Assembly (NCBI GenBank): GCA_018897435.1
Contig: JAHIKI010000095.1
Location: 1-55,089, forward strand
Reading direction: 5' to 3'
Origin: Acidobacteriota bacterium
GTDB taxonomy: Bacteria > Acidobacteriota > Aminicenantia > UBA2199
DNA: 55,089 nucleotides
A program made the position numbers and the translations under genes. The number at the start of each line of letters is the position of its first letter. Position 1 is the first letter of the stretch. This document shows positions 11,864 through 18,725 of the stretch, piece after piece. The notes under the pieces were generated by a model that had not been told where the DNA came from, searched no databases, and saw nothing but the letters and a program-made list of their open reading frames with translations.

Positions 11864-11883
11864 CGGGTCATTTGCTTTTCGGT

Positions 11884-11917
11884 CCCCCCTTACCCAAGGG
11901 GGGATGCAGGGGGGATT
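11884..11917. repeat. 34-bp C/G-run repeat, copy 1
   Basis: CCCCCCTTACCCAAGGGGGG forms an imperfect hairpin and is followed by ATGCAGGGGGGATT. The identical 34 bases recur at 12056-12089, and both copies are followed within a few bases by CATATC. Confidence 0.75.
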
Positions 11918-11954
11918 CGCATATCAGGTGGAAGAGCAATTTCGCCGAAATAAT

Positions 11955-11999: not shown

Positions 12000-12055
12000 T
12001 TAATATGGGGCGCTATCAGATAAGTTCATCTTAAGTTTTCTCTCAATCGCTTTCT

Positions 12056-12089
12056 CCCCCCTTACCCAAGGGGGGATGCAGGGGGGATT
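12056..12089. repeat. 34-bp C/G-run repeat, copy 2
   Basis: Identical over 34 bases to 11884-11917. The 387 bases between mrfA and trxA hold only this repeat cluster and the 26-bp palindrome; no gene is seen there. Confidence 0.75.
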
Positions 12090-12137
12090 GTCATATCGCG
12101 GCAGACGCAAAATACTTTTATTATATTGATCCTTTAC

Positions 12138-13061: not shown

Positions 13062-13952
13062 TTACTTTACTGGTTCAGGCAGGTCCATGGCCGCCCGCCA
13101 TGTTTCGGGCAGGAAACTGACCATGATCTTTTTGCTGCTGACCGGGTGGCGAAATGAGTAATGGAAACAGAGCAGCCAAAGCTCAGCGCCGGGAGTGCAA
13201 TGGCCGTAGCGGACATCACCGGCCAGGGGCGCCACTTTTTCCTGAAAATGGCGGCGGATCTGGTGGGTGCGCCCGCTCTGCGGAAAAACCAGAAAAAAAT
13301 AGCGGCCGCTGCTTTCCCGGCAAAAGCGAACGTAGGTCAAAGCCGACTTGCAGCTTCCCTGCCACTCCAGCGCCGAGCGAATGATATAGGAAGGCTGCAC
13401 GCCGGCAAAAACTTGGGTGGCGGCCAAGTAGCGCTTGCGGATCTTCCGTTCCTGGAACTGGCGGTGCAAGGCGATCTCGCTCCTTTTGTTCTTGGTGAAA
13501 AAGACCAGCCCCTGGGCCGGCAGGTCGAGGCGGTTGATCGGCGCCGCCCGGTAACGGAGGGACAAGCCATCGTAATATTTTTGCACGCCGTGCAGCAAGT
13601 TATCGATGTCGCTGTAGGGGGTGGGCTGTACCGGCACGCCTCCCCTTTTAAAGACGATAAGCAGATCGCGATCTTCATATTTGATTTCTTCGGGCAGCAA
13701 TTCATATTCCTGTATCGTGAATTTCGGCCGGTCGACGCGCAGCAGCTGGCCGGCGATGGCCATGGTTTCGTCCTTCAGGCGTTTTTTTCGTTCTCCATCC
13801 CAGACGCTGCCCTGGCGGACCAGCTGCCTTGCCGCTTCGGGACCAATGGGCAAATGTTTCTGCAGGGCTTCGCTTAAAGTCATGGATTGACCCGCCTTAA
13901 GACGGATGAAAAATCTTTGCAAATTTTTATAAGGCGTGGGCACTGCTTTCAT
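13062..13952 (-). CDS. RluA-family RNA pseudouridine synthase
   Basis: Enzyme of 296 residues that isomerises uridine to pseudouridine in rRNA or tRNA. An N-terminal S4-like region (about 20-75) precedes the catalytic domain. The catalytic aspartate lies in INRLDLPAQGL, where the usual HRLDxxTSG has become NRLDLPAQG with Asp kept. Further motifs are KRYLAAT and FPQSGRTHQIRRHF. The ATG at 13952 comes 7 bases after a strong -10 box; the longer in-frame reading extends through the promoter and is rejected. The promoter and first codons are duplicated 1,708 bases to the right, beyond the AbiE pair. Confidence 0.88.
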   Translation of the reverse strand: MKAVPTPYKNLQRFFIRLKAGQSMTLSEALQKHLPIGPEAARQLVRQGSVWDGERKKRLKDETMAIAGQLLRVDRPKFTIQEYELLPEEIKYEDRDLLIVFKRGGVPVQPTPYSDIDNLLHGVQKYYDGLSLRYRAAPINRLDLPAQGLVFFTKNKRSEIALHRQFQERKIRKRYLAATQVFAGVQPSYIIRSALEWQGSCKSALTYVRFCRESSGRYFFLVFPQSGRTHQIRRHFQEKVAPLAGDVRYGHCTPGAELWLLCFHYSFRHPVSSKKIMVSFLPETWRAAMDLPEPVK

Positions 13953-13988
13953 CACCGCGATTGTAGCCCCGCTCCCCACACCTGTCAA
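13931..13988. repeat. Direct repeat A: rluA promoter and first codons
   Basis: Matches 15639-15696 without gaps at 50 of 58 positions. It contains the TTGACA and TACAAT boxes, the ATG and about six codons of the pseudouridine synthase gene. The two copies bracket the AbiE toxin-antitoxin pair. Confidence 0.85.
13960..13988 (-). promoter_or_regulatory. rluA-family gene promoter
   Basis: Leftward TTGACA (13988-13983), 17-base spacer, TACAAT (13965-13960), ATG 7 bases later. It is a near-consensus promoter with no room for a ribosome site. Confidence 0.75.
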
Positions 13989-14094
13989 TCTAAAGTTGAA
14001 ATGTCTTATTCCATATTGCAGATTTTCCTGGTTCTCTTTCAAAACCGCCCCGGCCGCGCCCGCGCTTTGCAAGCCCTTTTTATATTACCAGTAG

Positions 14095-14129
14095 TTGACA
14101 TATATGCAAACTAATTGTATCATATATTC
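14095..14129 (+). promoter_or_regulatory. abiE promoter, ATG 6 bases after -10
   Basis: TTGACA (14095-14100), 17 bases, TATCAT (14118-14123), six bases, then ATG at 14130. It predicts a leaderless transcript. Confidence 0.7.
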
Positions 14130-14903
14130 ATGATAAAAAATGATCATTTCAGCGCTCGGCAACATGTCGAATTGTTTCATCTGCTGTTTCTGGTTCAACT
14201 GGGTCAAAAATTGGACAAAAGGTATTATGCCCTGAAAGGCGGGTGCAACCTGCGCTTCTTTCACAAAAGCCTTCGCTATTCCGAAGATATCGACCTCGAT
14301 CTGCAGGACATTTCCCCCGAAAAAATCGTTGCCGTCACGGACACGATTCTGACTTCGAAGCCCTTTGCCGACATCCTCTTCGTTCACGGCATGGCGATTG
14401 GAAAATGGTCGAAGCCAAAGCAAACCGACACCACCCAGCGTTGGAAAATTGCCTTGGCCGTCAAGGATTCAGATGTAACGCTGCCGACCAAGGTGGAATT
14501 TTCCAGAAGAGGCATGACTTTGAACACCAGGTTCGCAGCAATCGATCCTTTGATCGTCAAGTTTTACCGACTCACCCCGCTCCTGCTCAACCATTACGAT
14601 GCCCATGCGGCCTACGAGCAGAAAATCACCGCCCTGATAAACAGGAAGGAAACGCAAGCCCGGGATGTTTTCGACATAGGCCATTTATTAAATTCGGGCG
14701 TGGACCCGGCCCTTTCGTCCCGGCATCTGCGGGAGCGGCTCCAACAGGCAATCGACAATATCTTGTCCATCACCTTTCCGGTATTCAAAAGCCAGGTCCT
14801 GTCATTCCTTCATCCCGATTATCAACGGCAATACGATTCCGAGGAAGTTTGGCACGATCTGCTTTTGAAAATTGTCGAACATCTTGAAAGGCAGGCACGA
14901 TGA
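14130..14903 (+). CDS. abiEii: AbiEii/AbiGii-type nucleotidyltransferase toxin
   Basis: Toxin of 257 residues from the DNA polymerase beta-like nucleotidyltransferase superfamily. The fold signature is present as LKGGCNLRFF followed by YSEDIDLDL, where the two acidic residues bind metal. Downstream motifs (PTKVEFSRR, and KITALINRKETQARDVFDI with the conserved K..R.RD) match AbiEii/MenT-type enzymes. Members studied elsewhere modify tRNA acceptor ends or otherwise stop growth and abort phage infection. It is first in its operon and overlaps the antitoxin gene by 4 bases (ATGA), the reverse of the classic abiEi-abiEii order. Confidence 0.88.
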   Translation: MIKNDHFSARQHVELFHLLFLVQLGQKLDKRYYALKGGCNLRFFHKSLRYSEDIDLDLQDISPEKIVAVTDTILTSKPFADILFVHGMAIGKWSKPKQTDTTQRWKIALAVKDSDVTLPTKVEFSRRGMTLNTRFAAIDPLIVKFYRLTPLLLNHYDAHAAYEQKITALINRKETQARDVFDIGHLLNSGVDPALSSRHLRERLQQAIDNILSITFPVFKSQVLSFLHPDYQRQYDSEEVWHDLLLKIVEHLERQAR

Positions 14904-15529
14904 GACTGATCGACGCCTACGCCAGGCTGAAGGAATTGCCGACGTCCGTTTTCAGAACTCATGATCTGATGGCCCACCTACGCGTAAACAAGGTGAATGC
15001 CAGCACTATTCTGGCCCGCTTCGAGCAGGCCGGCCACCTGATCCGCCTGAAGCGCGGCCTGTGGGTTTTTCCCGATAAAATCGATCCTCTCGCCTTGGCC
15101 GCCCACCTTACTTATCCCTTTCCCGCCTACATCTCCCTGCAAAGCGCCCTTTTTTTTCACGGCATGATTTCGCAAATCCCGGAAACGATTTTTATCGTGT
15201 CCCCGGCCCGGACGCGAATCTACCGGACCAGGCTGGGAATTTTTTCCATCCATCACGTCTCCCCCTCCTTTTTCTTCGGATTCACCGCCATTTCATCGGG
15301 AGGCAATATGGCGAAACCGGAAAAAGCGCTCCTCGATTTTTTGTACCTGAGCCCGGCAAAATCGAATCTGTTCCGCGCTCTTCCCGAACTCGACTTTCCC
15401 GCCTCGTTCCGCTTGCCAACGGCCAGGCGGATGATCCGGCAGGCCGGCCATTCGCGCCGCATCACCATGCTGGAAAAAAGGTTTGCCGACTTTCTTTCCA
15501 GGCATCAAGGCAAATCGGACCGGCTTTAA
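14900..15529 (+). CDS. abiEi: AbiEi-type antitoxin / transcriptional regulator
   Basis: Antitoxin of 209 residues. An N-terminal winged helix (about 1-60, with VFRTHDLMAHLRVNKVNAST and RGLWVFPDK) would bind DNA and autoregulate the operon. The C-terminal part (about 65-205) contains the family hallmark YPFPAYISLQSALFFHGMI and the segment KPEKALLDFLYL. It neutralises the partner toxin in a type IV-like manner in characterised systems. It is the second gene, translationally coupled by ATGA to the toxin. About 110 bases later comes the second copy of the rluA promoter repeat. Confidence 0.88.
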   Translation: MRLIDAYARLKELPTSVFRTHDLMAHLRVNKVNASTILARFEQAGHLIRLKRGLWVFPDKIDPLALAAHLTYPFPAYISLQSALFFHGMISQIPETIFIVSPARTRIYRTRLGIFSIHHVSPSFFFGFTAISSGGNMAKPEKALLDFLYLSPAKSNLFRALPELDFPASFRLPTARRMIRQAGHSRRITMLEKRFADFLSRHQGKSDRL

Positions 15530-15540
15530 GTACCTGAAAA

Positions 15541-15660
15541 TCATTGAAATAGCGATCTTTTCCGATTTGCATTACATGTCAATGCCCCGTTTGTACCAAA
15601 ATTTTCACAAAAAGAAAAAGAGTCCTTTTTATTGTCGTAAAGCACGGGCGCTGCTTTCAT
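15541..15660 (-). pseudogene. Duplicated 5' end of the rluA-family gene (39-codon remnant)
   Basis: Starting from the ATG inside repeat B, the frame reads MKAAPVLYDN, recalling MKAVPTPYKN at the start of the real gene, then runs 29 unrelated residues to a stop. It keeps a near-consensus promoter, so a short transcript antisense to the end of the AbiE region is expected. It is either the original gene start left behind by an insertion, or a new copy. Confidence 0.6.
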
Positions 15661-15696
15661 CACCGCGATTTTAGTCCCGCTCCCCGCCCCTGTCAA
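15639..15696. repeat. Direct repeat B: copy of rluA promoter and first codons
   Basis: Gap-free 50/58 match to 13931-13988, offset 1,708 bases. Both promoter boxes and the ATG are intact in this copy. Confidence 0.85.
15668..15696 (-). promoter_or_regulatory. Duplicate rluA-type promoter
   Basis: Leftward TTGACA (15696-15691), 17 bases, TAAAAT (15673-15668), ATG 7 bases later at 15660. It lies back-to-back with the acsA promoter, with 22 bases between the two -35 boxes. Confidence 0.7.
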
Positions 15697-15818: not shown

Positions 15819-17522
15819 ATGACCAACATGCGTAGCTATGATGAAGAAATCAGGGACTTTAACTGGACAATTCCGGAAAAGGAGCTCGAATACCAACCGG
15901 GCCATGATATCAACATCGGCGCCTACTGCAGCGACCGCATCTGCACCCAGGGCAAGGGCGACAAGCTGGCCCTGATCTGGGAAGGCCACGCCGGCGAAGT
16001 AAAACAGTACACGTTCAACGACATGCGGCTGCTGACCAACACTATGGCCCAGTACCTGAAAAATCTCGGCCTGCAGCCCGGAGAGCGCATCTGCCTGTTC
16101 ATGGACAAGATACCGGAACTTTACTTCGGCTTCCTGGCCATATTGAAAATGGGCGGAATCTCCCAGCCCCTGTTTTCGGCTTTCGGTGCCGAGTCTTTGC
16201 TCACCCGCCTGGCCGACGCAGGCACGGCGGCCATCATCACCCAGAAAAAACACGTGGCCAAGGTGCGCGTCCTGCTTAAAGACATGCCCGGATTGCGCCA
16301 CATCATCATTGTCGATGACGATGAAAGCAAGCCGCTGCGCGAAAGGGAGATCGCCCTGCACATGGAAAAGGAAGCGCGGGTCGAAAACTTTCCGGTCTTT
16401 CCGTCCAAAGCTGAAACGCCATCGGTCTTGCACTACACTTCCGGCACCACCGGCAAACCCAAGGGGGCCCAGCACGTCCACTATTCGCTCATTTCACAAT
16501 ACATCAGCGCCAAGTATGTTCTGGACCTGCAGGATGACGACATCTACTGGTGCACGGCCGACCCGGGCTGGGTCACCGGCACTTCTTACGGCATCATCGG
16601 ACCCTGGGCCAACGGCATCACCCAGTGCGTGCTCGACGCCGGCTTCAAAGCCGAATCCTGGTACCGCTTTATCGAAAAACACAAGGTCACGGTCTGGTAC
16701 TCGGCACCGACCGCCATCCGCTCCCTGATGAAGGAAGGCGACGAGATCGTCAAAAAATTCGACCTCTCCAGCCTGCGCCACCTCTGCTCGGTCGGCGAAC
16801 CGCTCAACGCCGAGGCGGTGCTGTGGTCAAAAAAGGTCTTCGGCCTGTTTTTCCACGACACCTTCTGGCAGACCGAGACCGGCAGCATGATGATCAGCAA
16901 TTACCCGACCATGAAGATCAAGCCCGGCTCCATGGGCAAGCCCTTCCCGGGTATCACCGCCACCGTGGTCGACCTGAAGACCCATGAGCCTATTACCAAG
17001 GCCGGCATCGTTGGTCTGATCGCCATCAAGCCCGGCTGGCCGTCGATGTTCCGCACCTACTGGAACAACGAGGAAATCTATCAAAGCAAGTTCAAGAACG
17101 GCTGGTACATCTGTGGCGACCGCGCCTCGATCGACGAAGACGGCTACTTCTGGTTCGTGGGCCGCGATGACGACGTGATCAACACCGCCGGCCACCTGGT
17201 CGGCCCCTTCGAGATCGAGTCGGCGCTGCTCGAGCATGAATCGGTGGCCGAGTCGGCGGTGGTGGGCAAGCCCGACCCGGTGAACATGGAGGTGGTCAAG
17301 GCCTTCATCGCCCTCAAACCCGGCTTCCAGGCCTCCAAGATGCTCGAGCTCGACATCATGAACTTCATCCGCAAGAAGCTTTCGCCCTTGGCCATGCCCC
17401 AGGAGATCGAGTTCGTCCCCTCGCTGCCCAAGACGCGTTCGGGCAAGATAATGCGCCGCGTGCTGCGCGCCCAGGAGTGGGGCGAGGAGATCGGCGACAT
17501 ATCCACCCTGGAAAACGACTAG
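15819..17522 (+). CDS. acsA: Acetyl-CoA synthetase, AMP-forming (AcsA type)
   Basis: Cytoplasmic acyl-adenylate ligase of 567 residues making acetyl-CoA from acetate, ATP and CoA; the length and many blocks match Bacillus AcsA. The P-loop-like motif is YTSGTTGKPKGA, DIYWCTADPGWVTGTSYGI is a family hallmark, and FWQTETGSMMI is the adenylate-binding motif. The hinge region reads GRDDDVINTAGHLVGPFE and the C-terminal catalytic lysine lies in PKTRSGKIMRR. The ATG at 15819 follows GGAGG by 7 bases and is preferred to the TTG at 15813. It has its own promoter and no operon partner. Confidence 0.93.
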   Translation: MTNMRSYDEEIRDFNWTIPEKELEYQPGHDINIGAYCSDRICTQGKGDKLALIWEGHAGEVKQYTFNDMRLLTNTMAQYLKNLGLQPGERICLFMDKIPELYFGFLAILKMGGISQPLFSAFGAESLLTRLADAGTAAIITQKKHVAKVRVLLKDMPGLRHIIIVDDDESKPLREREIALHMEKEARVENFPVFPSKAETPSVLHYTSGTTGKPKGAQHVHYSLISQYISAKYVLDLQDDDIYWCTADPGWVTGTSYGIIGPWANGITQCVLDAGFKAESWYRFIEKHKVTVWYSAPTAIRSLMKEGDEIVKKFDLSSLRHLCSVGEPLNAEAVLWSKKVFGLFFHDTFWQTETGSMMISNYPTMKIKPGSMGKPFPGITATVVDLKTHEPITKAGIVGLIAIKPGWPSMFRTYWNNEEIYQSKFKNGWYICGDRASIDEDGYFWFVGRDDDVINTAGHLVGPFEIESALLEHESVAESAVVGKPDPVNMEVVKAFIALKPGFQASKMLELDIMNFIRKKLSPLAMPQEIEFVPSLPKTRSGKIMRRVLRAQEWGEEIGDISTLEND

Positions 17523-17575: not shown

Positions 17576-17995
17576 TCAATTTCGAATTATTTTTTTTATT
17601 CTTGATAAGTCGGCATTTTCTTTGATGCCTTTAAAGTAAATTTCGATTAATTCAATACGGTCAGCATCGGGATAAAAAGCATAGATGACCCGGATTCCCG
17701 ACATTACTCCCTTACCTTTCAGGGAACGGCAAGCAAATTTTTTGGCTTTAAAGACAGGAGGATTATCAAATCCAAGATCGGTCAGCCGATAAATCCCATT
17801 GTTATCCAATCCCAACTTGTGGAACATGATCAACTGAGTAGAAACAAAGTTTTGAAGATCGTCCTCGAGAGTCGGAAACCTTTTACGAAGCTTTTTCAGG
17901 TCTTTTTTGAACTCAGGAAGTTCAACGATTTCCTTGAAATTACTCACTATATTGTCTAACTGAATAGGGTGCGGTTCGATAGAAAACAGCTTCAT
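17576..17995 (-). CDS. RelE/HigB-like toxin
   Basis: Small basic protein of 139 residues of the RelE/ParE type, likely a ribosome-dependent mRNA endonuclease. Family-like features are EFKKDLKKLRKRFPTLEDDL near residues 28-47, the central FKAKKFACRSLKGKGVMSGIR, and IRVIYAFYPDADRIELIEIYFK forming the last strands. It starts inside the antitoxin gene (56-base overlap) and is downstream of it, so expression is coupled. The N-terminal 25 residues may be an extension; a later start cannot be excluded. Confidence 0.8.
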   Translation of the reverse strand: MKLFSIEPHPIQLDNIVSNFKEIVELPEFKKDLKKLRKRFPTLEDDLQNFVSTQLIMFHKLGLDNNGIYRLTDLGFDNPPVFKAKKFACRSLKGKGVMSGIRVIYAFYPDADRIELIEIYFKGIKENADLSRIKKIIRN

Positions 17996-18725
17996 AAGGA
18001 ATTATTTTCCCGCTTTCCGTGGTCATCCAAGGGATATCGTTATGGGAATATTCGCTGATCTTGGCGGCATTCCAGTCTGAAAAACGACAGAGGACCTTTT
18101 CAATCATATTAATTTCATTGGCCTTGAGTTTTGCTAAATCGGCAGGACGTCGCGGAAGATATTTCGTCTGTGGAAAATTAAAATATTCGCTTTTTACTTT
18201 TTCGATTTCCTGTTCTTTAATCATACGGTCGACAATTTTCTTGAATTCCATTGGAGTCGGGCCGTGATGATTTTTCTGGTAGGAGGCGCCGATCAGTTGT
18301 TCCTCATACATCTCGTAATAGTCAAAATCGATAAAATACAGGAGCTTATACAATACGGTTTCGCCGATATTGGGCAACGAACCGACCCTGCCTAAAATAT
18401 ACAACAACACTTCTTTGAACTTATCCAAGTTCTTTTGTGGAACGGAAATTCGAATTTCTTTTTCAACCGGCGTCGGAGAATTCTCTTTCTCTGGAAGATT
18501 AATTCGGGGCGTGCATTCCGGGTCTATCAGATTTTCCAGAGTAATGTTGAATTTTTTGGCCAGAAGTACAAATTCTTCGGCAGTAATCTTTCTCTCTCCA
18601 CTTTCTATCTGAGATATTGCTGAGCGCGATATCCCGATAATAGAAGATAGTTTTTCTTGACTAATCCCTTCAATCTCACGGAGTTGCTTAATGCGTTTTC
18701 CCAAATCAACATTCATTTTATTCAT
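17940..18725 (-). CDS. XRE-Panacea (DUF4065) antitoxin
   Basis: Protein of 261 residues. The N-terminal XRE helix-turn-helix (about 8-62, with ISQEKLSSIIGISRSAISQI) would bind the promoter. A linker of about 40 residues leads to a C-terminal Panacea/DUF4065 domain (about 105-245). Diagnostic pieces are LYKLLYFIDFDYYEMYEEQ and GASYQKNHHGPTPMEFKKI. Panacea domains are known as unusually versatile antitoxin domains that pair with unrelated toxin folds; here the partner is a RelE-like protein encoded by the overlapping downstream gene. GAGGGAAG precedes the ATG. Confidence 0.88.
   Translation of the reverse strand: MNKMNVDLGKRIKQLREIEGISQEKLSSIIGISRSAISQIESGERKITAEEFVLLAKKFNITLENLIDPECTPRINLPEKENSPTPVEKEIRISVPQKNLDKFKEVLLYILGRVGSLPNIGETVLYKLLYFIDFDYYEMYEEQLIGASYQKNHHGPTPMEFKKIVDRMIKEQEIEKVKSEYFNFPQTKYLPRRPADLAKLKANEINMIEKVLCRFSDWNAAKISEYSHNDIPWMTTESGKIIPYEAVFYRTAPYSVRQYSE

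Follow-up and report, generated by a model that had tools for sequence, protein, structure and literature searches.

The accretion of cis-mobilizable elements (CIMEs) and integrative and mobilizable elements (IMEs) at integrase attachment sites produces cassettes in tandem, with direct repeats of a gene 3' end between them. For restriction-modification genes, insertion with long target duplication has been described (Nobusato et al. 2000; Furuta et al. 2010; PMC1643837, PMC3031569 and PMC3874152), and hotspots that lack mobile elements are established sites of homologous recombination in the core genes on their flanks (2017; PMC5635113). Most chromosomal toxin-antitoxin and defence genes lie off recognisable mobile elements, and their route of entry is unclear. 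Here we analyse a 55,089-nucleotide contig of an uncultured Aminicenantes bacterium of the Acidobacteriota (JAHIKI010000095.1 of assembly GCA_018897435.1; 'the window' denotes this whole stretch), which belongs to a metagenome-assembled genome (MAG), G000. Between rluA and acsA it carries a small, horizontally spread AbiE (type IV) cassette, at which 58-66 bp or more of the rluA promoter and gene start are duplicated. The reading that we favour, with a probability of about 0.55, is that cassettes flanked by gene ends spread by homologous recombination at the duplicated ends.

The locus and its relatives resemble the long target duplications of restriction-modification genes in that a selfish, two-gene, toxin/antidote-like unit without a transposase occupies a target that is single-copy and uninterrupted in genomes with the empty site (8 at rluA-acsA and 9 at prfB, see below), and in the long, variable flanking direct repeats (~100 bp). 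They differ in that the cargo is not a restriction-modification system, comprising instead AbiE, Fic, CBASS cyclase and UG19-type reverse transcriptase genes in Aminicenantes; further, the duplicated piece here is the end of a core gene, the allele of which appears to travel with the cassette, and insertions stack at one such end. AbiE and other defence genes can now be added to the restriction-modification genes for which the phenomenon was proposed in 2000. As in core-gene hotspots (PMC5635113), there is cassette turnover in the interval between two core genes, no mobile element is recognisable and a flanking gene recombines, in this case giving a mosaic rluA, but the abstract of that paper does not include cassettes delimited by duplicated core-gene ends. 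In a partial literature search, no published account of the duplicated-gene-end pattern was found for AbiE.

The direct repeats lie at 13931-13988 and 15639-15696, gap-free, with 50 of 58 positions matching and a start-to-start spacing of 1708, and bracket the abiEii-abiEi pair, in agreement with the positions and counts of the original prediction, which was made from the sequence of the window. They can be extended to 66 nt (13923-13988 and 15631-15696; 55/66 matches). Each copy, read on the minus strand, has TTGACA-17-TA[C/A]AAT (13988..13960 and 15696..15668), with the same ATG 7 nt past the -10 box. The description of each copy as a promoter with first codons is sound, but its 58-bp edge is softer than was claimed, given that decay is under way in the right copy, the rluA side of which peters out near 15630. 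The rluA reading frame continues only from the left copy (13923..13988, minus strand), which comprises the rluA promoter (TTGACA-17-TACAAT) and first codons, and which is of an allele otherwise present only in the congener G012. The right copy (15631..15696, minus strand; TTGACA-17-TAAAAT) is an orphan promoter/start that runs antisense into abiEi. The 44-nt repeat consensus, with up to 3 mismatches permitted, matches the window at only these two places and was found in none of 100 shuffles. No third copy was found in the G000 genome (2.19 Mb, 60% complete), which gave only chance matches of 14-19 nt; with two copies only, a repeat family scattered over the genome is ruled out. Divergence between the left and right copies was considered as a clock and dropped, the copies being too short and star-like in their relationships. 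The window is without any Rfam match to a structured RNA.

The original prediction had looked to sister genomes for an empty site with one repeat. Such a site was found in eight congeners (G004-G008 and G013-G015; loci L008-L012 and L015-L017), in which rluA lies directly beside acsA and the spacer has a single promoter/start copy and lacks direct repeats of 20 nt or longer; no abiE-free sister carrying both copies was found. These eight single-copy spacers show that the cassette is an insertion at rluA-acsA with a long duplicated gene start. The duplication is local. The same cassette occupies the same site in G012 (JAPKZM, Candidatus Aminicenantes), where only the left copy was found. In G012 an additional 1.3 kb, encoding a 261-aa protein, separates abiE from acsA, and this segment may have replaced the right copy; a candidate remnant of that copy was not accepted, being only a 13-nt match within an apparent repetitive hairpin. 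The 261-aa protein (L036 2582-3367) has no Pfam or PADLOC match and by eye is like a 272-aa protein of the G007 array described below.

In the two carriers the cassette has diverged less than the genes around it. At fourfold sites the divergence between G000 and G012 is 0.09 for abiEii and 0.13 for abiEi, against 0.40, 0.39 and 0.39 for the flanking helicase, rluA and acsA genes, respectively, and the segment common to both genomes at 93% DNA identity (14058..15621, plus strand) has sharp edges at 14058 and 15621, i.e. at the cassette edges. The spacer between the left copy and this segment (13989..14057) is missing from G012. Since the silent divergence of abiE is only about one-quarter to one-third of that of the flanking genes, the cassette has spread horizontally, having moved between lineages after they separated; vertical inheritance in G000 and G012 is ruled out by the same fourfold divergence.

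The start of rluA has a history different from that of its body. The promoter and first codons in the window are 77% identical to those of G012 and at most 58% identical to those of all other congeners, and a tree of this segment groups G000 with G012 (100% bootstrap), whereas a tree of the rluA body groups G000 with G007 (87% identity, 100% bootstrap), a genome that is cassette-free at this site. Along rluA, identity of the window to G007 falls from 91% (13350-13650) to 67% (13800-13950); where it falls, identity to G012 is rising, at 82-90%. The G000/G012 start allele is in no other congener, and the comparisons suggest that it travels with the cassette. A start allele shared with G012 on a body sister to G007 implies that the gene start was replaced and not rebuilt; one or both of the carriers gained a new rluA start along with the cassette, for which a crossover within rluA is the simplest route. 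Compared pairwise, the left, right and G012 copies match at similar numbers of sites (48-50 of 58), from which it follows that both window copies are of the alien allele type, and hence that the original duplication arose in, or came from, a lineage with that allele.

These observations run counter to the original proposal of a mechanism that regenerates the host's own promoter. A good promoter is kept in both copies, which speaks for a mechanism selected for that outcome. However, the promoter beside rluA is an imported allele, shared by both carriers, and the right promoter drives only antisense into abiE. In addition, most other cases involve promoterless 3' ends; these largely refute the idea, which we consider very improbable. 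Promoters are not special to the process, because the same pattern occurs at the 3' ends of prfB and acsA.

Duplicated gene ends also flank other abiE pairs, at prfB, at acsA and in G074, as the original prediction had suggested might be found. In G001 (JALOLC) an AbiE pair 69-76% identical to that of the window is located at the prfB 3' end, bracketed by 119-nt copies of that end (94% identity, spacing 1687), and the likeness of the window cassette to it is limited to the promoter and the two genes. The prfB gene is uninterrupted in nine congeners, seven of which have the same glycoside-hydrolase-like gene nearby. G001 prfB itself (L070 10538, G001:C7) lacks 23 nt at a point that coincides exactly with the start of the 119-nt repeat, and its frame is shifted, possibly through an assembly fault or as a scar. 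Two different AbiE pairs, in G002 and G008, lie at the acsA 3' end between acsA-end copies of 58-59 nt, and beyond the distal copy comes the sequence found after acsA in the cassette-free G015. In G074, from a different family of the same class, AbiE and a Y1-transposase gene together lie between two copies of ~58 nt (57/58) from the 3' end of a gene, and a repeat at AbiE in G070 has 30/31 matches. Overall, the repeats around AbiE pairs range from 31 to 119 nt in length.

We scored as tightly bracketed any locus with a direct repeat of at least 30 nt and at least 78% identity within 350 nt. Of those AbiE loci in the genus that have 350 nt or more of flanking sequence on each side, 4/11 are tightly bracketed, compared with 30 of 58,724 random segments (0.05%) of 1450 nt drawn from 673 kb of G000 and G015. 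Bracketing of AbiE thus exceeds the random-segment rate by a factor of hundreds, and chance is an unlikely cause, even when G002 and G008 are counted as one event. The count of four leaves out the G010 abiE, where a 31-nt partial copy on one side only fails the strict criterion. Also uncounted are the weak repeats at L111/L141 (17 nt) and L151, the G070 31-nt repeat, since it also spans a neighbouring gene, and the G006:C57 repeats, which are low-complexity arrays. Distant AbiE relatives (other classes or phyla, ~40-60% identity) are mostly without a bracketing repeat, so the pattern is not universal. Neither is it tied to abiE, since Fic genes and defence cassettes are likewise bracketed; insertions of the same style are found around further cassettes and at further gene ends. 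The control scan returned two Fic-domain genes in G000, each between direct repeats (L167 623-1780, G000:C5, 95 nt, 82%; L178 247-1845, G000:C16, 62 nt, 92%). A reductase-like gene beside a UvrA-like 3' end lies between 147-nt copies (82%; L200 2172-3947, G015:C9).

The recurrence also bears on whether the repeats reflect local duplication, or an assembly or strain-mixing artefact of draft MAGs, independent of cassette entry. All of the sequences come from MAGs and the 23-nt deletion at the G001 repeat edge is odd, as such an origin might predict, but the pattern recurs in independently assembled genomes far above the random-segment rate and empty sites have one copy. The window copies differ at 8/58 sites and so do not represent a collapsed or duplicated read path. 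We give this explanation little credence.

The acsA 3' end is an insertion hotspot in the congeners, additional copies of it being present in several of the 12 in which that end was located. In G010 (L250/L204, G010:C39) five acsA-end copies, at 1242, 3177, 5174, 6795 and 7757 of the reverse complement of L250, delimit successive cassettes, in the order of a two-gene unit, a C1A-protease-like gene with a partner, AbiE and a 320-aa gene, followed by the native HAD hydrolase and kbl genes; it is possible that this is an integrase-free accretion array. The acsA-kbl interval of G007 (L246, G007:C125, 26-14005) is full of defence genes with three acsA-end copies between them, the units being a UG19-type reverse transcriptase/TIR unit, a segment with LpxC, a CBASS-type cyclase and a HigB-like/Xre pair, and a PDC-S54 candidate defence gene. 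The internal acsA-end copy in G007 is 171-173 nt long and contains CCCCTCGCTG, as do the window acsA and one G010 copy; at the same place, G007's own acsA has GCCCGGCCTG. We tentatively suggest that core-gene ends, chiefly the acsA 3' end, may act in this genus as integrase-free capture points, at which defence and toxin-antitoxin cassettes, each bounded by gene-end copies, would stack in an array with integron-like function but made of ordinary gene ends, and from which they would cross species by homologous recombination at the duplicated end.

That acsA-end copies separate tandem cassettes is reminiscent of CIME/IME accretion, and a recombinase acting in trans at gene ends could account for it, in which case the repeats would be the attL and attR sites of minimal, non-autonomous CIME/IME-like elements accreting at acsA. 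Reuse of the acsA 3' end across several genomes, the copies having a similar 3' extent, the tandem arrays and the presence of tyrosine recombinases (PF00589) in every genome are consistent with this proposal. It is nonetheless unlikely given that no integrase was seen in the window cassette, in the acsA arrays or in any other cassette, that AbiE pairs occur at unrelated ends (rluA 5', prfB 3' and acsA 3') and that copy lengths spread widely, from 31 to 173 nt. Further, the genome with the largest array, G010, yields just two PF00589 matches, the number expected for XerC/XerD. The absence of an integrase, the variable repeat length, the small cargo (1-5 kb) and the several unrelated target genes also distinguish these loci from described CIMEs and IMEs.

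In the homologous recombination that we favour, the duplicated gene end would be the homology arm. A donor, either a linear piece with core-gene arms or a circle with one copy of the gene end, would enter a relative by ordinary homologous recombination at that end, so that the cassette would arrive together with the gene-end version that it carries and both neighbours would stay intact; entry by host recombination that leaves the neighbours intact would need no integrase. The first duplication could have arisen through a staggered break with fill-in, or through one-sided homologous plus illegitimate joining. Retention of the cassette is presumably aided by toxin-antitoxin addiction or phage defence.

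A less probable, though serious, alternative is that each insertion itself makes the duplication, i.e. that a wide staggered break is filled in so as to copy ~30-170 bp of the recipient's gene end, with the orphan copy then decaying. We know of no enzyme that makes such staggered cuts. The near-identical copies in G074 and G070, the variable repeat lengths around AbiE pairs and the single copy in empty sites all fit this explanation, and the same pattern, with duplications of ~100 bp, has been published for restriction-modification genes (PMC3874152 and PMC3031569). However, the alien rluA start in both carriers would need extra recombination, as would the internal acsA-end copy in G007, which is not of that genome's own allele.

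Several points weigh against homologous recombination at duplicated ends as the preferred explanation. Since both window copies are of the same alien type, the window alone does not separate recombination from staggered-cut duplication, and the about-equal distances between copies fit more than one order of events. No counterpart of the right copy was found in G012, and the 23-nt deletion in G001 is predicted by neither model. The array copies in G007 and G010 point to imported gene ends, but at few sites. All of the compared genomes are MAGs, and several contigs stop close to the repeats. The acsA arrays provide a natural series for telling staggered-break duplication from recombination-driven capture; because entry leaves a duplicated gene-end scar and a travelling allele, insertions of this type should be datable, trackable and automatically searchable.

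The cassette genes are of the AbiE type IV family, to judge from an AbiEii nucleotidyltransferase with an adjacent AbiEi, overlapping genes and a promoter of their own. The predicted toxin gene, abiEii (14130..14903, plus strand; PF08843, E 2.1e-16, above cut-off; PADLOC AbiEii), has an alternative TTG start at 14115 and overlaps by 4 bp the predicted antitoxin gene, abiEi (14900..15529, plus strand; best PADLOC model AbiEi, E 1.5e-32). The toxin gene comes first in the window, whereas AbiEi is first in the G002, G008 and G010 pairs. The cassette promoter, TTGACA-17-TATCAT (14095..14123, plus strand), has a -35 region that is conserved in G012 and G001. The claim that no transposase or integrase is present holds for the open reading frames at 9-21 kb, for several of which families were called, and the combination of a transposase and conserved terminal repeats typical of an insertion sequence or transposon was not found on the unit.

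On the right, the acsA-like acyl-CoA synthetase gene (15829..17522, plus strand; PF00501 and PF13193) is directly abutted at its stop codon by a pair (17576..18725, minus strand) comprising HigB-like (17576-17995) and Xre/SocA-Panacea antitoxin-like (17940-18725; SocA_Panacea match) genes. The same HigB-like/Xre pair is followed by an acsA-end copy in G007, G004 and G010; behind the pair in the window, no such copy was found. On the left, the rluA-like pseudouridine synthase gene (13062..13954, minus strand; PF00849, E 5.9e-21) has its ATG 7 nt after the -10 box, and this distance is 6-7 nt in the window and in those congeners whose promoter was available. The first 12 codons of rluA are highly variable among congeners, and its mRNA is probably of a conserved leaderless type. 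Beyond rluA, the window has two 43-nt copies (95%), at 11883-11925 and 12055-12097, of a hairpin-forming CCCCCTT..AAGGGGG intergenic repeat.

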